Below, one piece after another: positions 2,608-19,008 of a DNA stretch of 38,941 bases. Position 1 is the first letter of the stretch; each line of letters starts with the position of its first letter. The position numbers were made by a program, and so were the translations under genes. Source of the DNA: Gammaproteobacteria bacterium (GTDB lineage: Bacteria; Pseudomonadota; Gammaproteobacteria; Pseudomonadales; Azotimanducaceae); NCBI GenBank assembly GCA_012269545.1, contig JAAXKB010000064.1, forward strand, positions 1 to 38,941, read 5' to 3'. The notes under the pieces are model-generated. The model saw only the letters and a list, made by a program, of their open reading frames with translations, did not search any database and was not told the origin of the DNA.

Positions 2608-3687
2608 TTAGTTGTCCAATACACTTGCTAAGGAGGCAATACTGTCTCTGTCCAAACCGGCATGTTCGGCGGAGGTTAATACAGAATCCCAGCTATTCGG
2701 ATCGATTTCGATACCGTTTGCGATCCGTGCGGAGGCGCTCTCTTTTTCAGGGTCCCCCGGCAACCGCACCTGATCAACCCCTGCTGCTGGAGTGCTTGCA
2801 TAAATGTAGTTGATCATTGCACCCACTTCATTATCGAAGGAAGCCAGATCGCCGACGGCTTCTGGATCGATCAATACAGACAGCATGTTGTTGAGGGTTG
2901 CACCGCGCCGGGGATGTTCAGGTTGCATCGTGAATAAACCACCCAATGCTCCACCAAGCAGTTCGCAAATCACCATCAATCCGTAACCTTTGTGTCCGCC
3001 GAAGGGCTGCATCGCTCCTTTTGGGTTGTCGCCAAAGATAACGCCCGGATCTGTGGTTTCCAGACCGTTTTCATCTACCAGCGATTGGCCGGGTACGGCA
3101 GTGCCTTTCATGTGCGCGACCCTGACTTTGCCAGCCGCTACGGTTGTCGTAGCCATGTCGAGTACAACATGCTGACCGTCCGGGCGAGGAACTGCGCAGC
3201 AGTAGGGATTGGTAATAAATCGGCGGTCACGGCCCCCGAAGGCAACCACCATCGGGTCATGTCCTACAACGTTCACGTAGTGCATCGACACTAAACCATG
3301 GTCTGCACAGTACTCAGCGAAAGCGCCAATCCGGCCGAGATGGGCGGCATTGCCCAAGGCGACGCAACCAATGCCAAAGTTCTTGGTTCGCTCAATACCA
3401 ATATCCATGGCCTCAAAGCCCACGATGCGACCAAGGCCGGTACCGCCATCAATGGAGACAATGGCATTGTTGTCTTTGATAATCTGAGCATGGCGATTAG
3501 GGTCAACTTGCTTGTCGATCATGCCTTTTACATAGGCGGGAATCATACCGACGCCGTGGGAGTCGTGACCTTTCAGATTTGCTTCGACCAGATGGTGGGC
3601 TACCGCGTCAGCGTGCGCTCTCGGTGCGCCGGCTGCTTCAAGAATGGCACTGGCAGTGCGGGTCAAGGAAGTGTGTTCGATGAGCAT
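2608..3687 (-). CDS. Ldh/malate-dehydrogenase type 2 family (COG2055) NAD(P)-dependent 2-hydroxyacid dehydrogenase
   Basis: A 359-aa cytosolic oxidoreductase of the YbiC/AllD/ComC fold, which is unrelated to classical Rossmann malate dehydrogenases. Members interconvert 2-hydroxy acids and 2-oxo acids (malate, sulfolactate, ureidoglycolate and others); the exact substrate cannot be read from the sequence. Support comes from the N-terminal GHDSHGVGMIPAY motif containing the catalytic His, the segment GLGRIVGFEAMD, the NAAHLGRIGAFAEY helix, a VLDMATTTVAAGKV strand, and the glycine-rich GGHKGYGLMVICELLGGALGG near residue 250. The ATG at 3687 has AAGGGG 6-7 bp upstream; an upstream in-frame start adds 17 residues with no homology. 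It sits just downstream of tRNA-Arg(ACG) on the same strand. The small membrane protein follows it. Confidence 0.88.
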   Translation of the reverse strand: MLIEHTSLTRTASAILEAAGAPRAHADAVAHHLVEANLKGHDSHGVGMIPAYVKGMIDKQVDPNRHAQIIKDNNAIVSIDGGTGLGRIVGFEAMDIGIERTKNFGIGCVALGNAAHLGRIGAFAEYCADHGLVSMHYVNVVGHDPMVVAFGGRDRRFITNPYCCAVPRPDGQHVVLDMATTTVAAGKVRVAHMKGTAVPGQSLVDENGLETTDPGVIFGDNPKGAMQPFGGHKGYGLMVICELLGGALGGLFTMQPEHPRRGATLNNMLSVLIDPEAVGDLASFDNEVGAMINYIYASTPAAGVDQVRLPGDPEKESASARIANGIEIDPNSWDSVLTSAEHAGLDRDSIASLASVLDN

Positions 3688-7356: not shown

Positions 7357-10308
7357 ATGAAACTTTCGAGACTCATCTTCTTTCTGCTCAGTGCCTTTGC
7401 GCCAGTGGTCGCGATGGCGGAGTATTGGGTATCGATCGCCAGTTTCAAAAATCGTGACGGCGCTGAAGCGGCCTTGGTGAATGCCCAAAGACAATTCGAC
7501 GAGTCGTTAAAAGTGCAGGGCGCAGGCACCGAAAAAGGCTACTTCTTTAGGATTGTTGCCGGACCGTACGCGACGCAAAGCCAAGCCGAAGACGCCCAAG
7601 ATTTGTTGGGTCTTGCAGGTCTAAATAGAGGATGGGTTTGGCAGGATCAGGGCGCCGGGGTAGCGGCCGAGGGGTCCCGGGCTTTTGACGGCCCGATCGA
7701 TTTTGAACGCCTCGAACTCGATCGTGATTGGAGAGAGGATCCCATCCTTGAGGAGGGCTTCGATTTTTCTCCAGAGGACTCGTTACTGCCTCAGAACATT
7801 GAGCCTGCCCGAGATCCTCTGCCGGAGGTCCCCGATACCGCACCAAAGGGGTACCAGTTAAACAAACTTCAAAGAGAAGCGAGAGCGCCTCCGCTGGAGC
7901 CGTTAAATTTCCTTTTTTCCCTGAGTCAGACGCGCCCTAACTTTCCTCCTTCTTCAGCCACTTCGACCGACACGAACCCAAACAGCTCAACGTCCCTGAA
8001 TGTCATTACGTTCTCTCGAGACACGCCTGTCATTCTTGCTCGCAGGGATCTAGGGCGAGATGACATTAAAGTCGATGGCCGCCTGGATGAAGCCATTTGG
8101 CGTGAGTTGGCTGGTGCCGACGGGTTTTTAGTGTCAGATCCTGAGACCTTGGCGAAGCCCGCCTACACCACGATTGTAAAAGCCTTTTATACCGACGAGG
8201 GGCTATACGTGGGTGTGGATATGGAACAACCGCGAGCCACATTGATTAGGCGTTTGTCCAGCCGAGATGGCAGGCGAGTCAATCGTGACGCGATTGGTAT
8301 TACATTGGATACATCTGGTGAGGGGCGCTACGGCTATTGGATGAATGTCGCCTTGGGTGGCAGTCAGTCCGACGGCACAGTATTGCCTGAGCGTCAATTT
8401 AGTAGTGATTGGGATGGCGCGTGGTACTCCGGTACCGCGGTTACCGAGAACGGATGGAGCGCAGAAATTTTGGTGCCATGGTCCCAAGTCGGGATGCCCC
8501 GGACTGGCAGCCTGCGCACGATCAACGTTGCGTTTTCTCGCAAGCTGGCCTCTTTGGACGAAAGCTGGGGGCTGCCTGCCTTGCCGGGCAGTCAGCCGTT
8601 GTACATGTCTGCTATGCAGCCTTGGCAGTTGGAAGGGGTTGCGCCGCAACAGCAGTGGAGTTTTTTTCCCTACGTATCTTCCGTCGTGGATTTGCTTGAA
8701 AGCCGTGCCAAGGAAAACGTTGGCGCGGACGTATTTTGGCGGCCGTCGACAAATTTTCAGGCAACGGCTGCGATACGGCCGGATTTTGGCGCGGTGGAGA
8801 GCGATGATGTGGTCGTGAACCTTGGCGCCTTTGAAAACTTTTTCCCCGAAAAACGGCTGTTTTTTCAGGAAGGCATAGAGGTCTTTACCGCGACTCCCAG
8901 AGCTGAGGGTGGAGACCCGACGACCCTGCTGAACACCCGCCGAATCGGCGGCATCGGCCGTGCGCCTGCACTGCCCGACGGTGTTGAACTGACTGACCTT
9001 CAACGCCAAAAGCCTGTTGAGTTGGTTGGTGCGCTGAAAACCGTCGGTGCAACGGGCGGATTTCGATACGGGTTACTCGGTGCTGCAGAAGACGATGCAT
9101 CATATGAGGCAGATGGTGCCCGATACACTCAATCGGGCACAGATTACGGGGTAGCTCGGGTGCTGTATGAGGGTAAGAGCAAGGCAGGGGATTATCGGGC
9201 GCTAGGCTTCTTGTCTGCTTTGACACGGCACGCCGAGCAAGACACGCAGGCTCACGGATTGGATTATCACTACCTAACGGCACAGGGCGAGTGGAAAGTT
9301 GACGGACAATTTTTGTTTTCAAGTGCGGACGAGCGCAAGGACGGTTTCGGCGGTTTCGCTGATATTCGCAGAAATTTCGGCCAAGGCCGTCGCTTGCATC
9401 TGGGTTATTCGTACTACGACGAAGAACTCGATATCAATGATTTGGGTTTTTTAAAGCGCAACGATTTGCGTGGCAGCAATGGGCGTTACGAAGTGACTCA
9501 TTCGGACTCCCCAAGGTATCGGAAGCGTTATTTATCTTACTGGTATCGATGGGAGCGAAACAGTGCGGGTGCGTATGTACGAAAAGGACTCGGTGTGGAT
9601 GCGGAAGTTGATTTGCTGAATCGTCATCAAATTCGTATTGGGGCGGCTTTTTTTCCGGGCAGGGACGAAGATCTGGACAGCCGCAATAACGGCACGTACC
9701 GCTTTGGTGATCGCAACCGATTCGATGTCCGCTATCGCACGGACCAAGCCAAGGCTCTCAGCTACGAAGTGAGGCTTCGGCACGAAACAGAAAAATTGGG
9801 GGGGGCGAATTTGTCGCCAACCCTAAGCATTAACTGGCGCCCGCGAGACAATTTGAGTTTCGCTACGACCTTGGGTTACGTGAATCGAAGAGGGTGGTTG
9901 CTGTGGCGCGATGGGATTGATTTCGCCACGTTTGAAGCTGAAGAGTGGCGCCCGGAGGTCAGATTGGAATACTTTGCGAGCGCGAAACATCAATTCAAGT
10001 TATTGGCTCAATGGGTGGGGATTCGCGCGACGCAGCTGCAAAACTACCAGTTGCAGATCGATGGTGCTGAGCTTACTCCGGTTGATGAGAGTATTGCCCG
10101 CAGCGACGACTTTGCGATTTCGAATTTGTCATTACAAGCGCGCTATCGTTGGGAGATTGCACCGCTGTCTGATTTGTTTCTGGTCTACACCCTGAACGGT
10201 AATCGAGAGGTGCCGCGCGAAGCCTTTGATGATCTGCTGTCCTCTACTTTTGACGATCCTTTGGCGGAGCTGTTTGCGGTTAAATTGCGTTATCGGTTCG
10301 GCTCATGA
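7357..10308 (+). CDS. SPOR-like / CBM9-like / DUF5916 outer-membrane beta-barrel protein
   Basis: A 983-aa exported protein. Residues 1-21 form a signal peptide (basic start, hydrophobic core, cleavage after AMA). Residues 22-95 resemble a SPOR repeat (YWVSIASFKNRDGAEAAL, then YFFRIVAGPY and a third strand), the fold that binds denuded peptidoglycan. Residues 100-220 are an acidic then Pro/Ser/Thr-rich linker. Residues about 236-400 match a CBM9-like domain (DIKVDGRLDEAIWREL, the TDEGLYVGVDM strand, SAEILVPWSQ). The remainder resembles the DUF5916 barrel: RPDFGAVESD, then NFFPEKRLFFQEG, then many alternating aromatic strands to the end YRFGS. Family members are outer-membrane proteins of unknown transport or binding role, often in polymer-degrading marine bacteria. 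The SPOR-like head is an unusual addition. It overlaps the next gene by 4 bp. Confidence 0.82.
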   Translation: MKLSRLIFFLLSAFAPVVAMAEYWVSIASFKNRDGAEAALVNAQRQFDESLKVQGAGTEKGYFFRIVAGPYATQSQAEDAQDLLGLAGLNRGWVWQDQGAGVAAEGSRAFDGPIDFERLELDRDWREDPILEEGFDFSPEDSLLPQNIEPARDPLPEVPDTAPKGYQLNKLQREARAPPLEPLNFLFSLSQTRPNFPPSSATSTDTNPNSSTSLNVITFSRDTPVILARRDLGRDDIKVDGRLDEAIWRELAGADGFLVSDPETLAKPAYTTIVKAFYTDEGLYVGVDMEQPRATLIRRLSSRDGRRVNRDAIGITLDTSGEGRYGYWMNVALGGSQSDGTVLPERQFSSDWDGAWYSGTAVTENGWSAEILVPWSQVGMPRTGSLRTINVAFSRKLASLDESWGLPALPGSQPLYMSAMQPWQLEGVAPQQQWSFFPYVSSVVDLLESRAKENVGADVFWRPSTNFQATAAIRPDFGAVESDDVVVNLGAFENFFPEKRLFFQEGIEVFTATPRAEGGDPTTLLNTRRIGGIGRAPALPDGVELTDLQRQKPVELVGALKTVGATGGFRYGLLGAAEDDASYEADGARYTQSGTDYGVARVLYEGKSKAGDYRALGFLSALTRHAEQDTQAHGLDYHYLTAQGEWKVDGQFLFSSADERKDGFGGFADIRRNFGQGRRLHLGYSYYDEELDINDLGFLKRNDLRGSNGRYEVTHSDSPRYRKRYLSYWYRWERNSAGAYVRKGLGVDAEVDLLNRHQIRIGAAFFPGRDEDLDSRNNGTYRFGDRNRFDVRYRTDQAKALSYEVRLRHETEKLGGANLSPTLSINWRPRDNLSFATTLGYVNRRGWLLWRDGIDFATFEAEEWRPEVRLEYFASAKHQFKLLAQWVGIRATQLQNYQLQIDGAELTPVDESIARSDDFAISNLSLQARYRWEIAPLSDLFLVYTLNGNREVPREAFDDLLSSTFDDPLAELFAVKLRYRFGS

Positions 10309-12545
10309 AGCGTTTTAGAAATGCGACCCAGTGGGGGATTTATGACATCGCGGTAGAAAGTGGCCGCATTGTCGACGTGAAAGGTATCGACGAGGATCCA
10401 GAAGCATCCGCTATCGGGCAGGTTTTACTTGATGGCGTGCAGCACGATTCACGCATACAGCGCCCGGCCATTCGTAAAGGCTGGCTTGAGAATCCTGATC
10501 GCCGACGTGATCGTCGCGGCGCAGATGAGTTCCACGATGTGCCATGGGACGAGGCGCTGGAAATAGCTGCAAACGAGCTAACGCGGGTTGTGGCCGAACA
10601 CGGCAATAAAGCAATTTTTGGCGGGTCCTACGGATGGGCCAGTGCTGGTCGTTTCCATCACGCTCAATCTCAGCTGCATCGTTTTATCAATTTGTTAGGT
10701 GGCTGCACCCGAGCCATGAATTCTTACAGCACGGCTGCTGCACAGGTCATCCTGCCTCACATCATCGCCCCCTGGCCTCAGATGGAGCTGCAGCAAACGA
10801 CCCTCGAAAGTGTGGTTGGGCATACCGAACTGTTTGTAGCCTTTGGCGGCCTTCCTTCAAGAAACGCCCAAGTGGCCTATGGCGGTGTGACTGAGCATCG
10901 CACCGCGAAGGATTTGCTTCGCGCGCGCCTGGCCGGTACAGAATTCGTCAATGTTTCGCCAGTCGCTGGGGACATAGATGCGCACTTGCAGCCAACTTGG
11001 TTGGCACCCATACCGGGTACTGATGTGGCTCTTATGCTGGGTATCGCCTACGTATTGGAAACTGAGGGGCTGGCTGCTAGAGATTTTCTGCACAGTCACT
11101 GCGTCGGTTATACAAAGGTAAAAGACTATTTATTGGGAACGAACGACGGAATGGCCAAATCCCCTGATTGGGCATCTTCAATATGCGGCGTAGAGGCGAA
11201 GACTATTGAAACGTTAGCGAGGAAAATGGCGCAGAAGCGCACTTTTTTAGCGGCCGCGTGGTCGTTGCAGCGGGGGGATCATGGCGAACAACCCTACTGG
11301 ATGTTGTGTACGCTGGCGGCCATGCTCGGGCAGATCGGACTGCCGGGAGGCGGATTTGGATTCGGCTACAGTGCAGAGGCTTTTGTTGGTACCAATTACA
11401 GGCGATTCAATTGGGCGACTTTGCCGAAAGGGAGAAATCCAACAGGGTTTGCCATTCCCGTAGCGCGAATTGCAGATATGTTGCTCAATCCCGGGGCCAC
11501 AGTGGACTACAACGGTGATGAAATCGTTTACCCGGACACCAAACTGATTTACTGGGCTGGGGGCAATCCATTTCATCACCATCAAGATTTAAACCGACTG
11601 GTAAAAGCGTGGCGCAAGCCAGATACGGTTATCGTCAATGAGCCTTGGTGGACTCCGGTAGCGCAATGGGCGGACATCGTTTTTCCGGCGACGACGTCGC
11701 TAGAGCGCACGGATATTTGCGCCTCCAGTCACGATGCCTATGCACACTACATGCAGCAAGCCTTACCGCCTCAACACGATGCGCGCTCAGATCACGAGAT
11801 CTTTACCGGGTTGGCCCGCGTGTTGGGTTTTGCTGAGGCATTCACGGAAAACAAAAGTGAACGCGATTGGCTCAGAGATATGTGGGAGCGTTCGCAAAGC
11901 TCGGCAAAGCAGCAAGGCTTTCAGCTGCCAACATTCGAGGAATTTGAAGCAAAGGGCATATACCGCCTGCCAGAAGAGCATCGCGTCAGGGACTGGATGG
12001 CAGACTTTCGTGAGAGCCCGGAGCTTTCGCCGCTCCAGACACCGTCCGGTAAGCTGGAGCTGTATTCTGCGACGATAGCTGACTTTGGCTACGACGATTG
12101 TCCCGGACAAGCGACTTGGCTTGAGCCTTTAGAATGGCAAGAGACAGATCGCCAGCGTTACCCGCTGCATCTGCTGTCCCCACAACCAAAACGGCGATTG
12201 CACAGCCAGTACGATCAAAGCAAATTCAGTCAGGATGGAAAAATCGACGGTAGGGAAGTGTTGACGATGCATCCTGAGGCTGCAGCAGAGCGCCAATTGA
12301 AAGCGGGTGCGCTGGTACGAGTTTTTAATGAACGCGGTGCTTGCTTAGCCGGGCTATCCCTCGATATCAACCAACGTAAAGATACGGTGACGCTGCCCAC
12401 TGGGGCATGGTTTAAGCCTTCCACGGGATACGGCGCGGAACAAAATGGTAACCCCAACGTGTTGACGCGGGATAAGGGCACATCCCGACTGGCTCAAGGA
12501 CCCAGTGCCCATACCTGCTTGGTACAGGTCGAAGCTGTTAATTAG
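10305..12545 (+). CDS. Molybdopterin-dependent oxidoreductase, BisC/TorA/DMSO-reductase type
   Basis: A 746-aa single-subunit molybdoenzyme of the bis-MGD S/N-oxide reductase group (biotin sulfoxide, TMAO or DMSO reductase). The SYGW motif gives Tyr109 and Trp111, equivalent to Tyr114/Trp116 of Rhodobacter DMSO reductase. Ser142 in the NSYSTAAAQ segment is exactly 33 residues after that Tyr, as is the Mo-ligand Ser147 of the Rhodobacter enzyme. Later segments also fit: GGSYGWASAGRFHHAQ, GQIGLPGGGFGFGY, WAGGNPFHHHQDLNRL, and a C-terminal MGD-binding region. No twin-arginine signal and no N-terminal 4Fe-4S cysteine motif are present, so a cytoplasmic BisC-like enzyme is likelier than periplasmic TorA. 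Its start (ATGA) overlaps the stop of the barrel gene, which implies translational coupling. Substrate uncertain. Confidence 0.88.
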   Translation: MKRFRNATQWGIYDIAVESGRIVDVKGIDEDPEASAIGQVLLDGVQHDSRIQRPAIRKGWLENPDRRRDRRGADEFHDVPWDEALEIAANELTRVVAEHGNKAIFGGSYGWASAGRFHHAQSQLHRFINLLGGCTRAMNSYSTAAAQVILPHIIAPWPQMELQQTTLESVVGHTELFVAFGGLPSRNAQVAYGGVTEHRTAKDLLRARLAGTEFVNVSPVAGDIDAHLQPTWLAPIPGTDVALMLGIAYVLETEGLAARDFLHSHCVGYTKVKDYLLGTNDGMAKSPDWASSICGVEAKTIETLARKMAQKRTFLAAAWSLQRGDHGEQPYWMLCTLAAMLGQIGLPGGGFGFGYSAEAFVGTNYRRFNWATLPKGRNPTGFAIPVARIADMLLNPGATVDYNGDEIVYPDTKLIYWAGGNPFHHHQDLNRLVKAWRKPDTVIVNEPWWTPVAQWADIVFPATTSLERTDICASSHDAYAHYMQQALPPQHDARSDHEIFTGLARVLGFAEAFTENKSERDWLRDMWERSQSSAKQQGFQLPTFEEFEAKGIYRLPEEHRVRDWMADFRESPELSPLQTPSGKLELYSATIADFGYDDCPGQATWLEPLEWQETDRQRYPLHLLSPQPKRRLHSQYDQSKFSQDGKIDGREVLTMHPEAAAERQLKAGALVRVFNERGACLAGLSLDINQRKDTVTLPTGAWFKPSTGYGAEQNGNPNVLTRDKGTSRLAQGPSAHTCLVQVEAVN

Positions 12546-13524: not shown

Positions 13525-16500
13525 TCAAGCTGCAGCGGCTGCTGGTGTTAGAGCCTTTTTGCGGGCCTTCTTGCGCTGTATCGCCGCGTAGCTGGCCGGA
13601 ATCAGATACAGTGCGATTACGGCGGAGCCCGCCACACCGCCAGCAATGGCGGTTGCCAACGGGGGCCAAAACTTCCCACCGTTAACGATTAGCGGCACGA
13701 AGCCGCCAATAGTGGTGAGCGTCGTGGAAACAATGTGTCGGGATGCGTCCATAACCACGCTGACCACGGCCTCAGTGTCGCCCTCATTAGTGGCGGCGCT
13801 AGCCTTCAGGGCCGACAGCACGATGATTGCACCGTTAATGGCCAGCCCCATCATGCCCAAGGCGCCAATCAAGGCCATGTAGCCAAAAGGGTAGTCGAAA
13901 ATTCTTAGGCCCAGCAGTGCAAGACCGAAACTCAGTATGGCGACAGTGCCTATTAATCCTGCTTGGCGGAACGAATTCAGCGACAAAATCACCACCGCGG
14001 TCATGGCCAGAGCAAAGAAAATAAAAACAGACACGATGTTACCCATGGATTCGGCACTTTCTTCCGCCACGCCACCAATGCTCAGACGATAACCTGGCGG
14101 CGGCTGATAGCCTGTGTCCTCAAGTACCTTACGAATGTCCCTCATGACCGTGTCTGGCAGAGTGAAGGGCTGTAAAAACGCCTGCACCGTGCTAAGGCGC
14201 TCGCCTTGGCGTCGATCAATAGCCGAGGCCGTTGGCTGGAGCCGCCACTCGCCAAGCTCTTGAAGGGGTACACCATTACGATTGTTCGCCAGCAATGGCA
14301 GTGTCGTCAGGTCTGCAATGTCGTCGCGGAAACGGTCTGCTAGCTGCACTCGAACCGGAATTTGCCTATTGCCCTCTAACACCATGCCTGCGGTTTGACC
14401 GCTGAGCAGGGCGTTAATGCTCATGGCCAGTTCGCCGGTGCTGATACCGCTGGCAGCGGCGGCGTTTTCTCGCGGCGAAAAGGCGAGCTTGGGCTCCGCT
14501 GTAGACAGTGTGGCTCGAACAAAGGTCACCTTCGGCACCCCGGCGATTAGTGCTCGCAGAGTCTGGGCTTCTTTACGAAGCACTTGTAAATCCGGGCCAA
14601 TGATTCGGAGCTCGATGGGTGCGTCTGTTGGCGGGCCCTGTTCAAAGGGTATGGCCAGAACCTCAGCCTCTGGCAGCGCGTTAGATAAATCGTCCTGCAG
14701 GGTTTTCAGTACCGACTCGGTCTCTGCTGCTGATCGGGTATTGACCCAGCCTGAGGCAAAACTCGGCACTCGCTCGTTTAGAGAAACCACGTTGTAGTAC
14801 ACCCTTGGCGCACCCTCGCCAATGGTCCAATGGGTATTCGTTATCTTGGGGTAGCTGCGCAGAACCTCGTTCGCGCGAAACACACTGTCCCGCGTTTCCC
14901 AAATCGAGGCCTGACCAGGTAGTGCAATTTGAATTTGGAACTGATTTCGGTCTACCGCAGGAAAAAACTGGTTGGTCAGCGTGGGTGAGAGACTAAACCC
15001 AATCAGCGGCAACACGAGAGCGGCGGCTATACCAATGAACGGACGGCTAATGGCTATTGTTAAAGTGCGCCGATATATTGCGCTCAAACTTGGGTTTGAG
15101 AATCCCTGCTGCCACCAGCGTCCCGTGCTGCGAGAGGGCCAGCGTTCTTCCAGATAACCGGCAAAGGCGGGCACGACAGTCATGGCCAGAAAGAAGGAGC
15201 TGGCGACCGACAGGGCAACCGTCACACCAAGAGTGCCGGTGAAGTCGCCAACACCGCCGGGCGCTAGAGCGATGGGCATAAAGGCAAATACCGTGGTTGC
15301 TGTGGATGCCCCCAGTGGTATCCAGAGGTGATGTACAGATTGATTAATGGCGTCAGCGATAGCCGCCCCGGACTTTCGCTTAAGTTTATAGTCTTCCACC
15401 ACGACGATAGCGTTATCAATCAGCAAACCTAACGAAATGATCAGGCCGGTGACAGACATCTGGTGCAGAGGAATGTCCAAATACATCATGCCGATAAGCA
15501 CCATGGCCGCGGACAGTGGCAGGGCTAGACCAACGGTGACGGCGGAACGCAGCCCCATCATCCAGATTAGCACCAGCAGCACTAAAATCAGCGCAAAGAT
15601 CAGGTTGGTGGCCAAGGACACCATGCGATCGCCGGTATAGGTGTTCTGCTGGTAGACGATATCAAGGGCGATGCCGTCAGGCAGTTCAGCCTGAAGTTTG
15701 GCCACCGCGGCTTCGGCGTTTCGAGTCCAAGGCTCAATTTGCAGCCCCGGCTGCATCTTGGCGTTGACAAAAATCGTACGCCGGTCGCCCTGGTATGCCA
15801 AGCTGCGCGGCGGGTCCAAGGCTGTTTTGCTCACGGTTGCAATGTCTGAAACGCGCAGGGCTTGGCTTTCGGTGCCAATAGAAAGTGGGACCCGGCCTAT
15901 GCGCTCGGCAGATTGCAGGTCGGCCTGAACCTCCACCAGCATATCGCTGGCGCCGGAGCGAAGTCGTCCAGCAGGCACCTTGGTGTCAGCCCCGGCAATG
16001 GCGCTAGCAACCCGTTCCGCGCTCATGCCGCTGGCCACCATTTTGTAGGGATCAATGGCGACCCGAATCTCTTCTTCAACTTCCCCCCAAGTCTCCGCAA
16101 CTTCAGTCCCGGGCGTGTTGGCTAAACTGATGCGCAGGGTTTCTGCAATGCGAGACATAATGCCCAGCTGCTGAGGCGAGTCGTGCAGCCAGTTAATGGC
16201 GACAATCAGGGTGGAGGCAATGGGCTGACGGATTTGGAGCTCTGGCTCAACTGCGCCAGCTGGGAGCGCGGGTACTGTGTCGCTCAAAACGTCGCGGACC
16301 TCGGACCAAACGTTGTCGGTCTCAGAGTCGGCCACAGAGTCGTACAGCTCAATGTCGACAACAGACTGACCAGCCTTGGAGCTGGACGTTAATTCCTTGA
16401 TCTCTGGAATTTCTCGCAGTGCGGTCTCTATGGGCTCGCTGATGAGTGTCTCCATACGCAGCGCCGTGGCGCCGGGCAAAAAGGTGATTACCCCGGCATA

Positions 16501-16626
16501 GCGTTCGGCCATCTTGGGGTCTTCTTGCCTTGCGAGGCTGGTAAAGGAAGCGCTGCCAAGCACGACGATAAAAAGCACCAGCAGTATGCTAACCCGCGGG
16601 TTGGTAAAGAAGAGGTTAGCTCGCAC
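13525..16626 (-). CDS. RND-family efflux permease (AcrB/MexF-like inner-membrane pump)
   Basis: A 1033-aa proton-driven transporter. The topology is that of RND pumps: TM1 near the start (VSILLVLFIVVLGSASF), a large periplasmic loop, a TM2-6 bundle (NLIFALILVLLVLIWMMGLRS, PLSAAMVLIGMM), a second periplasmic loop and TM7-12. TM4 carries GLLIDNAIVVVED; the position equal to AcrB Asp407 is Asp404 and that equal to Asp408 is Asn405. The polar C-terminal tail is Lys/Ala-rich. I take the GTG at 16626, which overlaps the adaptor gene stop by 11 bp; an ATG at 16698 is in frame but would overlap by 83 bp and adds a non-homologous leader. It is partner to the adaptor upstream. No TolC-type outer-membrane gene is in the operon, so the tripartite pump probably recruits one from elsewhere. 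Substrate unknown. Confidence 0.92.
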   Translation of the reverse strand: MRANLFFTNPRVSILLVLFIVVLGSASFTSLARQEDPKMAERYAGVITFLPGATALRMETLISEPIETALREIPEIKELTSSSKAGQSVVDIELYDSVADSETDNVWSEVRDVLSDTVPALPAGAVEPELQIRQPIASTLIVAINWLHDSPQQLGIMSRIAETLRISLANTPGTEVAETWGEVEEEIRVAIDPYKMVASGMSAERVASAIAGADTKVPAGRLRSGASDMLVEVQADLQSAERIGRVPLSIGTESQALRVSDIATVSKTALDPPRSLAYQGDRRTIFVNAKMQPGLQIEPWTRNAEAAVAKLQAELPDGIALDIVYQQNTYTGDRMVSLATNLIFALILVLLVLIWMMGLRSAVTVGLALPLSAAMVLIGMMYLDIPLHQMSVTGLIISLGLLIDNAIVVVEDYKLKRKSGAAIADAINQSVHHLWIPLGASTATTVFAFMPIALAPGGVGDFTGTLGVTVALSVASSFFLAMTVVPAFAGYLEERWPSRSTGRWWQQGFSNPSLSAIYRRTLTIAISRPFIGIAAALVLPLIGFSLSPTLTNQFFPAVDRNQFQIQIALPGQASIWETRDSVFRANEVLRSYPKITNTHWTIGEGAPRVYYNVVSLNERVPSFASGWVNTRSAAETESVLKTLQDDLSNALPEAEVLAIPFEQGPPTDAPIELRIIGPDLQVLRKEAQTLRALIAGVPKVTFVRATLSTAEPKLAFSPRENAAAASGISTGELAMSINALLSGQTAGMVLEGNRQIPVRVQLADRFRDDIADLTTLPLLANNRNGVPLQELGEWRLQPTASAIDRRQGERLSTVQAFLQPFTLPDTVMRDIRKVLEDTGYQPPPGYRLSIGGVAEESAESMGNIVSVFIFFALAMTAVVILSLNSFRQAGLIGTVAILSFGLALLGLRIFDYPFGYMALIGALGMMGLAINGAIIVLSALKASAATNEGDTEAVVSVVMDASRHIVSTTLTTIGGFVPLIVNGGKFWPPLATAIAGGVAGSAVIALYLIPASYAAIQRKKARKKALTPAAAAA

Positions 16627-17746
16627 TGATAGCGAACTCTGCGGCGACTGGCAGCACCCTTTGCCCCTGCACAATGCGTTGGGTGCCTGTTGCGACAATG
16701 CGATCCTGGGGTGTTAGCAATCCTCGCACAAAGGCGCGATCGCCTTCGTGATGCAGAATTTCAACCAACCGTCGCTGCACTGTGTTTTCCGCATCGACAA
16801 TAAACAGGCCCCACAGACCTCGATCCATTGCAGTCAGCGCAGATAGCGGAACCCAAAAACCTTCGCTTGCCACGCGCTCGTCTAGGGCCAGCTCCAGCAC
16901 TGCGCCGAGCGGAATTCGTTGGTCGGTGAAGGTGAAAACCGCCGTGGCGGTGCGCGTGTTAGGGTCCACCTCGGGCAGTACGCTGCGTAGCAGGGCGGCG
17001 ACTTCAATGCCTTGCCAGCGAATGGGATATGACTGCCCCGCAGTTAGGCCTAAAACCACGCTTTCCGGGACGCCAACATGGGCCTCCCGAAGGCTGGTTT
17101 CAACGAGAACCAACGCTGGCGCCCCGGGCGTAATTTGCGAACCCTCATCCACATAGCGCGCCTGAATGACGCCGGCGAAGGGCGCCCGAATGACGGCTTC
17201 GCTCAGCTGGACTTTGATGGCGTCGACTGTCGCTTCGGCTCGTTTCAGTGCGGCCCTGGCTACCGACAATTGCGCGGTGCTGGCCTGCATTTTGAGATTG
17301 GCTTCATCAAAGGCCTGCTGCGAAACATGGCCCCTGGCCCGCATGGCGCGTATGCGGCGTTCGGTATTCGCTGCGAGTTTTTTTTGCGCTGTCGCCACTT
17401 GGCGATTGGCCTCGGCCAAAGCCTGCTCGGATTGCGCCTGGCGTAAATCTGACCCAAGTCCGCGAGCGTCCAGTCGGGCCACCACTTGGCCCGCTGCTAC
17501 GGTGTCTCCCAAGTCAACGGCGACTACAGAGATTTCTCCGCCCCGCTTGAAGCCCAATTCTGCTCGGCGGGCTGCCTTGCTGGTGCCTGCATAAACACGA
17601 CTGGTGCGGTAGGAAGCTTCAGGCGTGGCCGTGATGTAGGTTACCGTGAGGTCTGCCCACACTGAGCCAGAGGCACTGAGCCACAGGGCTGCAATCAGGG
17701 GCAGGGCGCTGGCGACATGACGGCAAACAAATAGGTTATCGGGCAT
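16616..17746 (-). CDS. RND efflux periplasmic adaptor (membrane fusion protein)
   Basis: A 376-aa HlyD/AcrA-family adaptor that links the RND permease to an outer-membrane channel. The signal peptide occupies about residues 1-31 (SALPLIAALWLSASGSVWA). A barrel-sandwich half follows (AELGFKRGGEISVVAVDLGD, AAGQVVARLD), then a long alanine/glutamine-rich coiled coil (LRQAQSEQALAEANRQV through RAALKRAEATVDA), the second lipoyl half (RAPFAGVIQARYVDEGSQIT) and beta-barrel/membrane-proximal domains. The ATG at 17746 is chosen because it precedes the signal peptide; the frame stays open upstream into the tetR start region. No lipobox cysteine follows the signal, so it is probably not a lipoprotein. 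It is the first gene of a two-gene operon, divergent from tetR. Confidence 0.92.
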   Translation of the reverse strand: MPDNLFVCRHVASALPLIAALWLSASGSVWADLTVTYITATPEASYRTSRVYAGTSKAARRAELGFKRGGEISVVAVDLGDTVAAGQVVARLDARGLGSDLRQAQSEQALAEANRQVATAQKKLAANTERRIRAMRARGHVSQQAFDEANLKMQASTAQLSVARAALKRAEATVDAIKVQLSEAVIRAPFAGVIQARYVDEGSQITPGAPALVLVETSLREAHVGVPESVVLGLTAGQSYPIRWQGIEVAALLRSVLPEVDPNTRTATAVFTFTDQRIPLGAVLELALDERVASEGFWVPLSALTAMDRGLWGLFIVDAENTVQRRLVEILHHEGDRAFVRGLLTPQDRIVATGTQRIVQGQRVLPVAAEFAISAS

Positions 17747-17870
17747 TAAGGCTCTCAAAATTCGATGGATCAACTTCTCTGAGTTGCTTAGCAGTCTAAA
17801 AAAAGCGTTAAATGTTAGCAATGCACACATTTGCCTTGACCTAAGGTACTGCCGAGGATGCTGAAAAAGC
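17747..17870. promoter_or_regulatory. Divergent promoter/operator region between the efflux operon and tetR
   Basis: This 124-bp gap must carry promoters for both directions. On the minus strand, TTGCTA and TAGACT lie about 17-18 bp apart and form a plausible weak sigma-70 promoter for the adaptor gene. The short imperfect dyad around CAATGCACACATTTG (about 17820-17834) is a candidate TetR site. TetR regulators usually bind such gaps, but the exact operator is not certain. Confidence 0.35.
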
Positions 17871-18497
17871 GTGAAATCTAAATCCAAATATCATCACGGC
17901 GATTTGCGAGCCACGTTGTTGCAACTTGCTGAGGCACAAATTGCGCTTGCAGGGGTTGAAAAGTTAAGCCTGCGAGCACTTGCGCGCCAAGCCGGGGTAT
18001 CTGCAACGGCGCCCTTCAGGCACTTCTCTGACAAACAGGCGTTGCTCGGCGCACTTGCCATCGATGGATTTAATGAGCTGGCGCAAAGCATCAATGAGGA
18101 GTCTAAGGCCTCGACCTCCCTGGAAATGCGCTTTGTTGGCATCGGCGTCTCCTACATTGCCTTTGCTCAGGACTTCCCAGTGCATTATCAGTTGATGTTC
18201 GGCTCAGTGCTGGGCGACTTTGCGCAACAGCCAGAGCTTCAGGAAGCTGCCGCCCGAACCTACGGGATTCTCGATGAGCTGCTCATGGATATGCGACGGC
18301 AAGAGGATCTGGCGATGCCGATTGAGGCCCTAGGTGGTTTGGTCTGGTCAACAGTGCACGGCATGGCCTCCCTGCTCATCAACATACCACCGGCTAATGC
18401 GCAAACAGACGTGGCACCACGCCAGGCGGTCAGGACACTTGCCGAAGATCCGCGCGGTCCCTTGAAGGCCCTCTATCGGGGCATCGTTGCAGGTTAG
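17871..18497 (+). CDS. TetR/AcrR-family transcriptional repressor
   Basis: A 208-aa regulator. The N-terminus has the TetR helix-turn-helix: YHHGDLRATLLQLAEAQI (helix 1), LSLRALARQAGVSATAPFRHF (helices 2-3), then SDKQALLGALAIDGF. The C-terminal ligand/dimer domain (about residues 85-205) resembles the WHG-type TetR_C seen in many gammaproteobacterial regulators (YIAFAQDFPVHYQLMFG, LGGLVWSTVHGMASLL). The start is GTG at 17871, with the conserved YHHGDLR only seven residues in. It is divergently arranged with the RND adaptor/permease operon, the standard layout of local efflux repressors, so it probably controls that operon and itself. The inducer is unknown. Confidence 0.9.
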   Translation: MKSKSKYHHGDLRATLLQLAEAQIALAGVEKLSLRALARQAGVSATAPFRHFSDKQALLGALAIDGFNELAQSINEESKASTSLEMRFVGIGVSYIAFAQDFPVHYQLMFGSVLGDFAQQPELQEAAARTYGILDELLMDMRRQEDLAMPIEALGGLVWSTVHGMASLLINIPPANAQTDVAPRQAVRTLAEDPRGPLKALYRGIVAG

Positions 18498-18689: not shown

Positions 18690-19008
18690 TGGTAGCCCCG
18701 ACAGGAGTCGAACCTGTATCTATCGCTTCGTACCCGCTACTGCTTTAGCAGCCGCCTTCTGGCGTTTGTGGTCTGGACTTTCTCATAACCGTGGCGCGAA
18801 ACACGCGTTAGGCTGCATCCGTCAAGTCTCTACACCTTCCAAGGGCGACAAACGCACTTGGCTTGGCTCGGGATTGCCATGCTCAGAAATGATCAGCGTC
18901 ATTGCTAAGAGAAGGTTTCCCCGAATTTGAATGCTTCTCACCAGTGGTTTCCCGTCTGATGACCCAATATTTAGGAGGCGATCGTTCTATCCATTGAACT
19001 ACGGAGCC
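18690..19008 (-). tRNA. tRNA-Arg(CCU) gene interrupted by a group I intron
   Basis: Read on the minus strand, the 5' exon is 36 nt (19008-18973) and the 3' exon 39 nt (18728-18690), giving a 75-nt mature tRNA with encoded CCA. Stems after splicing: acceptor GGCTCCG/CGGGGCT (with G-U at 1-72 and one internal wobble), D stem GTTC/GAAC, anticodon stem ATCGC/GCGAT with loop CTCCTAA (anticodon CCT), and T stem ACAGG/CCTGT with loop TTCGACT. The anticodon stem halves are about 250 nt apart, so neither half alone is a tRNA. The break falls between T36 and A37. This tRNA decodes the rare AGG codon. Standard tRNA finders may miss it or report a fragment. No other tRNA lies close by. Confidence 0.93.
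18729..18972 (-). ncRNA. Group I self-splicing intron, subgroup IC3-like, 244 nt
   Basis: The intron lies in the anticodon loop of tRNA-Arg(CCU). The exon triplet CCU can pair with GGG at intron nt 8-10, giving the U-G pair expected at the 5' splice site (P1). The last intron base is G, followed by exon AA. Core elements occur in order: GACGGGAAACCAC (P2 with GAAA loop), TCAAATTCGGGGAAACC, the P4-Q region ATGGCAATCCCGAGCCAAGC, then the R/P7 region GAAGGTGTAGAGACTTGACGG, and the P7 3' strand AAGTCC near nt 193-198. Each has a close counterpart in the Azoarcus tRNA-Ile(CAU) intron as I remember it. There is no open frame for a homing endonuclease, so it is presumably inherited vertically or moves with help in trans. 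The length is near that of the Agrobacterium tRNA-Arg(CCU) intron. Confidence 0.92.

Follow-up and report, generated by a model that had tools for sequence, protein, structure and literature searches.

We identified a small group I intron that splits the tRNA-Arg(CCU) gene in a window of 38,941 nucleotides (the whole stretch of gammaproteobacterial DNA that was analysed). This intron very probably splices itself out to yield a tRNA that reads AGG, and it probably entered the gene once and has been inherited vertically since. The anatomy of the locus, an exact empty allele, a covarying structure and a set of relatives were established directly. The finding extends a known kind of bacterial tRNA intron by one lineage, and the split gene is overlooked both by default ARAGORN and by the Rfam cut-off. 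The intron is genuine but unexceptional within a family found in bacterial and some phage tRNA genes; the wider surprise is the presence of related introns in viral tRNA genes and plasmid records. Intron-bearing, intronless and apparently replaced alleles, together with a second intron and the viral and plasmid kin, provide a natural test bed for the spread and loss of tRNA introns.

Anatomy, detection and structure of the intron

The split gene runs from 19008 to 18690 on the minus strand, and the intron is inserted after U36, the position that marks bacterial tRNA-Arg(CCU) introns. The precursor is 319 nt long and the ligated exons form a 75-nt tRNA-Arg(CCU). P1 consists of the exon CCU against the intron GGG, with a U.G pair at the splice site. 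The features of the locus are as follows.

18973..19008, minus strand: 5' exon of tRNA-Arg(CCU), 36 nt, positions 1-36, ending in the anticodon CCU (ARAGORN intron option); identical in the uninterrupted alleles of genomes G033 and G022
18729..18972, minus strand: group I intron of the bacterial tRNA (IC3-like) type, 244 nt, terminal G (RF00028; covariation over 12 genus introns)
18966-18967, minus strand: UU just 5' of the guide GGG, candidate P10 with AA of the 3' exon
18963..18965, minus strand: internal guide GGG, forming P1 with exon CCU (sequence reading)
18939..18961, minus strand: P2, its apical part capped by GAAA; 5 of 8 pairs doubly changed, 93.8% of cells paired
18868..18924, minus strand: P4-P5 domain, P4 being UCGGG/CCCGA; both P4 and P5 paired in all 12 introns, with no variation
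18834..18867, minus strand: P6-P6a; P6 invariant, P6a with compensatory changes
18776..18828, minus strand: P7 (GACUU/AAGUC), the expected guanosine-binding helix, invariant in 12 of 12; encloses the 3' strand of P3 and P8
18729..18772, minus strand: P9.0, P9 and P9a with the terminal G; P9a loop UAAA in the window copy
18690..18728, minus strand: 3' exon of tRNA-Arg(CCU), 39 nt, position 37 to the encoded CCA

The original prediction had given the coordinates, the 244-nt length, the insertion after position 36, the guide GGG and the terminal G correctly to the base, and its reading of the insert in tRNA-Arg(CCU) as a group I intron whose 5' splice site has a U.G pair is supported. The motif UUGGG (intron positions 6-10) is invariant in all 12 aligned genus introns. 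P5/P5a is short, with no P5abc-type extension, and the host site reads as a tRNA anticodon loop, as in the IC3 introns, which are described in part of one source as being without P5(a-d) (PMC11835236). No ORF of 100 or more amino acids overlaps the intron, whose 244 nt offer room for 81 codons at most; among the ORFs listed at this length, there was thus no homing endonuclease of the kind expected in a mobile group I intron. A promoter and terminator scan found no promoter-like site near the gene.

With permissive filters, RF00028 matched positions 18978-18763 (model positions 1-253) with a score of 33.3 bits and an E-value of 7.8e-7 (1.0e-6 for the whole genome). The gathering score of this model is 50, so the intron is missed by Rfam at its curated thresholds, and a scan at gathering thresholds reported nothing at the locus; the homologue in G017, at 48.7 bits, likewise falls below 50. 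We nonetheless accept the match to the RF00028 core as identifying a group I intron: the search proposed in the original prediction recovered the full model, but not at a score above the curated cut-off. RF00028 by itself does not tell subgroups such as IC3 apart. The expectation that standard tRNA finding may miss the gene was borne out by default ARAGORN, which placed no tRNA at 19008-18690 and returned tRNA-Arg(ACG) at 3838-3762 as the only tRNA of the window; the intron option recovered the gene, as tRNA-Arg (cct), i(37,244).

We aligned 12 genus introns and drew a P2-P9 structure on the window sequence, with P3/P7 as a pseudoknot. This structure is paired in 92.2% of 692 cells, and 24 of its 59 pairs are changed on both sides (shuffle mean 13.3, with 0 of 500 shuffles reaching 24). 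The doubly changed cells number 62, against a mean of 24.1 in shuffles that do not keep sequence relatedness (0 of 500 as high). When the partners were slid, paired cells dropped to 27.0-39.5% and doubly changed pairs to 3-10, a comparison in which the drawn structure is favoured by its very derivation from the window's own row. One measure of five, further pair types, was no higher than in shuffles (388 of 500 as high). Compensatory pairing was identified in P2, P3, P5a, P6a, P8, P9 and P9a, and among the core helices both P3 and P8 are doubly changed; P4, P5, P6 and P7 are uninformative for covariation, since they are invariant in the 12 introns. P5a covaries yet is only 72.5% paired, with one further pair there at 37.5%, and the inner P8 helix is poorly kept (54.2% paired). 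The P9a loop is UAAA in the window, AAAA in its nearest relative G001 and GAAA in 10 of 12 introns, and P5 pairing in the window copy reads as poorer than in G001; tertiary docking may therefore be weaker in the window copy.

The own assembly is a draft of 88 contigs, which might lead one to suspect an assembly artefact or a chance insert in place of a group I intron. This reading, which we regard as vanishingly improbable, is refuted by homologous introns at the same site in 12 other genus genomes, 11 of which could be aligned and carry compensatory changes. Chance is further countered by the excess of doubly changed cells and by an identical uninterrupted allele in two genomes, G033 and G022, in which the gene equals the window's joined exons in 75 of 75 letters.

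Group I introns are removed in two steps, in which guanosine attacks at the 5' site and the freed exon then attacks after the terminal G. By analogy with the group I family, from which its chemistry, its splicing in the cell and the function of its product are taken, the 319-nt precursor would carry the intron after anticodon base U36 and the intron RNA would fold into a P3-P8/P4-P6 ribozyme. The guide GGG would pair with the exon CCU in P1, and a guanosine would be bound in P7. The bound guanosine would attack after U36 in P1, and P10 (UU/AA) would then align the freed exon for its attack after the terminal G, such that U36 is joined to A37 and the product is a normal 75-nt tRNA-Arg(CCU) reading AGG. 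This splicing chemistry is outlined in part of a published review (PMC3984707).

The window intron is most likely an active self-splicing intron, judged by its likeness to the group. The contrary view, of a decaying group I intron that splices poorly while AGG is read mainly by tRNA-Arg(UCU) via wobble, appears improbable. Decay would accord with the score of 33.3 bits, lower than those of eight relatives (37.6-48.7 bits in G001, G005, G012, G014, G016, G017, G021 and G025), with the non-GNRA loop of P9a, and with the intact tRNA-Arg(UCU) of G001, the closest relative. However, the introns of G030, G034 and G011 score lower still than the window copy, and none of the 12 introns varies in the guide, P4, P6, P7 or the terminal G. 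The gene does not appear to be drifting, since its exons are identical to the uninterrupted alleles. Moreover, a pattern search found no tRNA-Arg(UCU) in the own assembly, perhaps owing to an assembly gap.

Another intact tRNA-Arg(CCU) in the same genome, named in the original prediction as evidence against a functioning locus, was rejected, as an exact pattern search found no uninterrupted copy elsewhere in the own assembly (99.13% complete); this pattern would miss a gene with an odd T-loop or a copy lying in an assembly gap. An RF00005 list for the own genome, of at least 25 matches, was not decisive on this point. The codon served by the tRNA had been called rare; AGG is in fact not very rare, accounting for 45 of 650 Arg codons in 26 ORFs of the window.

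Distribution and genomic setting within the host genus

We searched 37 genomes of the host genus, the own genome (G000) included. The tRNA-Arg(CCU) gene contains the intron in 13 (G000, G001, G005, G011, G012, G014, G016, G017, G021, G024, G025, G030 and G034), is uninterrupted in 17, and gave no match in seven (G007, G009, G015, G020, G029, G035 and G036), five of which reach no more than 90% completeness. The intron of G024 is cut by the ends of two contigs. The 17 uninterrupted genes comprise 12 found first, one in G028 that was read at the end of a contig, and four whose sequence differs, recovered by pattern in G002, G004, G018 and G027. The clearly different uninterrupted sequences in G002, G004 and G018 (L397, L396 and L400) suggest that the gene has been replaced there.

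In all 10 intronless genus genomes examined at this locus (G033, G022, G013, G023, G026, G006, G019, G008, G003 and G032), a gene for a molybdopterin oxidoreductase is found no more than about 2.5 kb from the tRNA. The same holds for the intron-bearing genomes G001, G030, G017 and G021; in the window the gene occupies 10305-12545, farther from the tRNA. The 15.6 kb around the G014 gene did not show it, and neither did stretches of 2-3.3 kb around the genes of the other intron-bearing genomes. Because the same oxidoreductase neighbour occurs with and without the intron, the tRNA site is orthologous in most cases in which enough flank was seen. The window additionally contains an AcrB-type efflux pump, a membrane-fusion protein and a TetR regulator (13525-18497) between the oxidoreductase gene and the tRNA. 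No such block was found between the two in G001 and G030. It looks inserted beside the tRNA, which would account for the greater distance of the oxidoreductase gene from the tRNA in the window.

The 12 full genus introns formed one clade in an earlier core tree (support 100/98). The groups G000/G001/G011/G012 and G005/G016/G017/G021 were recovered alike in the intron tree and in a host tree of SufB (27 genomes, 21 of them of the host genus). Marking 17 genomes of then known state on the SufB tree required two changes; G002, G004 and G018 were left unmarked, as their different uninterrupted tRNAs were recognised later. In a more careful tree, and unlike in the earlier core tree, the introns of G025 and G034 join the G017 group (99/56). 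The number of gains and losses and the order of subgroups are not fixed by these data, given a single host gene, open deep branches and the shift of G025 and G034. The simplest reading is a single gain followed by loss or replacement: one entry of the intron into the tRNA gene, in one part of the genus, would probably have been followed by vertical inheritance, with the tRNA apparently absent or replaced in some species.

We identified a second intron in the own genome, distantly related to the first (G000:C61:5552-5279, minus strand; L172 1501-1774), which scores 77.2 bits with RF00028 and by our reading sits in tRNA-Ile(CAU) after U36. Derivation of the Arg(CCU) intron from this Ile(CAU) intron was rejected, as the two share 50.0% core identity and the latter belongs to a separate, long-branched Ile(CAU) lineage of the class. 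RF00028 matches outside tRNA-Arg(CCU) were found in 19 of the 37 genus genomes, 16 of them with an Ile(CAU) exon motif. Across the class, 56 of 369 genomes have an RF00028 match of any kind, rRNA introns included (L216). In the host-genus species G008, an intron is present in tRNA-Arg(UCU) after U34 (G008:C7, L031 411-697, minus strand), which RF00028 did not report; G019 has an uninterrupted tRNA-Arg(UCU) with the same exons around the site. A prophage around the G008 intron was rejected, since among 10 neighbouring proteins compared with Pfam (two without a match) are lon, clpX, clpP, trigger factor and MiaE.

Relation to known introns and possible origins

A pattern scan of named genome contigs returned at least 118 stretches with related introns; the pattern was built from the window intron and its kin, so this sample leans towards window-like introns. 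Among the stretches listed, 95 had a split tRNA recognisable by a typing script, which made 0 calls in 590 trials on the 118 loci when the flanks of the core motif were shuffled. These host tRNAs are Leu(UAA) split after position 34 in 47 cases, Arg(CCU) after 36 in 17 and Ile(CAU) after 36 in 14. The other 17 comprise Thr, Lys, Ser, Arg(UCU), further Leu, and CAU tRNAs split after 33, the last being probably initiators. The anticodon register was set by hand for five His-read loci and L002, all taken as Arg(CCU), and for L103, taken as Lys(UUU). Of the 23 stretches without a script-called tRNA, 15 were read by eye and four of these were added to the trees.

The trees exclude repeat loci and introns longer than 380 nt (earlier and quick trees) or 330 nt (careful tree, of 147 rows), and the gammaproteobacterial Ile(CAU) lineage was left out of the quick, careful and AU-tested trees. 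The AU-tested and careful trees further exclude named long-branch rows, and the careful tree and its AU test include 42 viral rows. The core comparison covers about 200 columns, with long branches and unsettled bootstraps.

Over 204 columns and among the matches listed, the window intron has a mean core identity of 66.6% to 54 Leu(UAA) introns (best 72.3%) and of 62.7% to 17 alphaproteobacterial Arg(CCU) introns. Its mean identity to 14 betaproteobacterial-type Ile(CAU) introns, used as stand-ins for Azoarcus, which is itself not among them, is 58.9%. The closely Azoarcus-like core of the original prediction thus finds no support, and an Azoarcus-like origin was rejected, the Leu(UAA) introns being closer.

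The general IC3 layout of the window intron is the same as that of the Azoarcus tRNA-Ile(CAU) intron. Introns of the Azoarcus kind also share with it the insertion after position 36 and the GAAA-capped P2, but differ in the tRNA, in their guide GUG and in their 3' end. Reinhold-Hurek and Shub reportedly described, in 1992, an alphaproteobacterial tRNA-Arg(CCU) group I intron of the Agrobacterium kind. The alphaproteobacterial Arg(CCU) introns agree with the window intron in the tRNA, in insertion after U36, in the guide GGG and in size (218-252 nt in the 17 collected, against 244), whereas they lie in another part of the best trees. The bacterial tRNA-Leu(UAA) IC3 introns have the closest core outside the genus among the matches listed, but interrupt a class II tRNA, after its U34. 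A gammaproteobacterial intron of the tRNA-Leu(UAA) type (L094 2308-2772, minus strand) carries a gene for an HNH endonuclease that belongs to a phage-type family, and by eye the introns of L071, L078 and L158 start like it.

Bacterial tRNA group I introns are recorded from cyanobacteria and from alpha- and betaproteobacteria (PMC4033280, in part). The original prediction had stressed the gammaproteobacterial setting, which is no surprise by itself, as putative group I introns missed by annotation are described in gammaproteobacterial Beggiatoa and Thiomargarita (PMC4853749, in part); these lie in other tRNAs, tRNA-Arg(UCU) and tRNA-Leu(UAA), and the same source leaves their intron type open. 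By title or abstract start, we found no gammaproteobacterial tRNA-Arg(CCU) intron among the papers listed. A tRNA-Leu(UAA) intron in a gammaproteobacterium is said to have been reported in 2002.

For the origin of the genus introns, we consider there to be about an even chance that their source was not an Arg(CCU) ancestor and that they arrived horizontally, from a Leu, Thr, Lys or initiator tRNA gene belonging to a phage or to a different phylum. The careful tree joins them with the Thr(UGU) introns of Tritonibacter and Salipiger, an acidobacterial Lys(CUU) intron and a Rhodothermaceae CAU-anticodon intron, whose host is probably an initiator tRNA (99/92), and places the alphaproteobacterial Arg(CCU) introns elsewhere; the highest core identity outside the genus, among the matches listed, is likewise to a Leu(UAA) intron (72.3%). 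Against this, AU tests did not reject a grouping of the genus and alphaproteobacterial Arg(CCU) introns (p 0.397 on the earlier tree, 0.112 on the careful set), and the small number of columns, long branches and unsettled bootstraps weaken any placement. Common descent with the alphaproteobacterial introns, from an ancient Arg(CCU) intron that most gammaproteobacteria have since lost, would explain the same tRNA and position 36 in alphaproteobacteria, in a betaproteobacterial Herbaspirillum MAG and in two other gammaproteobacterial-named contigs. All Arg(CCU) introns as one clade were not rejected either (p 0.132 on the earlier tree, 0.178 on the careful set). We nevertheless regard such descent as unlikely, as 0 of 21 genomes from other families of the same order matched the intron query and the best trees separate the genus and alphaproteobacterial groups.

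A lateral origin by transfer between tRNA genes is thus the favoured reading of the sequence comparisons, rather than an established one. The transfer between tRNA genes or lineages raised in the original prediction remains plausible insofar as the tree joins Thr, Lys and CAU introns, but is tempered by the single Arg(CCU) clade that the tests allow. In a quick tree the genus introns had fallen among mostly viral ones (97), and in the careful tree they did not; we made no use of this placement, since it was gone once long rows were removed and viral rows thinned. One of the Thr(UGU) introns, inserted after position 36, lies at about 1822-2151 of L042, from a 1.26 Mb replicon of Tritonibacter mobilis, and such an intron was also found in Salipiger.

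Viral and plasmid relatives

A scan for related introns returned at least 120 stretches of IMG/VR viral contigs (L275-L394), with 121 matches listed; IMG/VR may include misassigned cellular contigs. The typing script assigned 105 of the 121 matches to a split tRNA, and made 0 calls in 605 trials on the 120 viral loci with shuffled flanks. Three calls, all Phe(AAA), were dropped as spurious, representing one low-scoring pattern met three times, which left 102 matches in 101 of the 120 stretches listed. Among these, the host tRNA is Leu(UAA) split after 34 in 76 and Arg(UCU) in 15, and the other 11 are Ser, Thr, Met-type, Lys, Asn, Arg(CCU) and two further Leu. Three of 10 proteins from two viral stretches matched PHROGs. 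Of the 16 viral matches left untyped, several have flanking sequence from one and the same gene. In L302 the downstream flank of the intron matches a major head protein family, which places the intron of at least this stretch in a major head protein gene. The Gordonia phage Daredevil isolate (L354; L043 about 1879-2189), one of the 101, has a split tRNA-Lys(UUU) near an integrase gene, with no feature annotated there.

According to part of a 2014 review, every phage intron known at that time lay in a protein gene, although phages have many tRNAs (PMC3984707). A 2019 study, in the part available, describes introns in Lak phage tRNAs as enigmatic and, to its authors' knowledge, the first (PMC6784885). 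In a partial collection of the literature, we found no report by title of group I introns in phage tRNAs. It is possible, although we hold it as a tentative idea more doubtful than probable, that phage tRNA genes are a main vehicle by which this intron family moves between tRNA genes and bacterial phyla, residing in phage tRNAs and capsid genes and passing into host tRNA genes through recombination at the anticodon arm, which is conserved; the window intron would then be one landing.

On plasmid pCTX-M3 (L039 about 2861-3159), a group I intron splits a tRNA-Leu(UAA) that lies close to aac(3)-IId and to a gene for an AAA ATPase. The nearest introns, among the matches listed, are alphaproteobacterial, which hints at an alphaproteobacterial source of this segment. 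DNA similar to the tRNA-Leu(UAA) stretch was found in 1280 of 72,556 plasmid records (1257 of them with at least 80% of the query) and in 635 of 5426 E. coli genomes.
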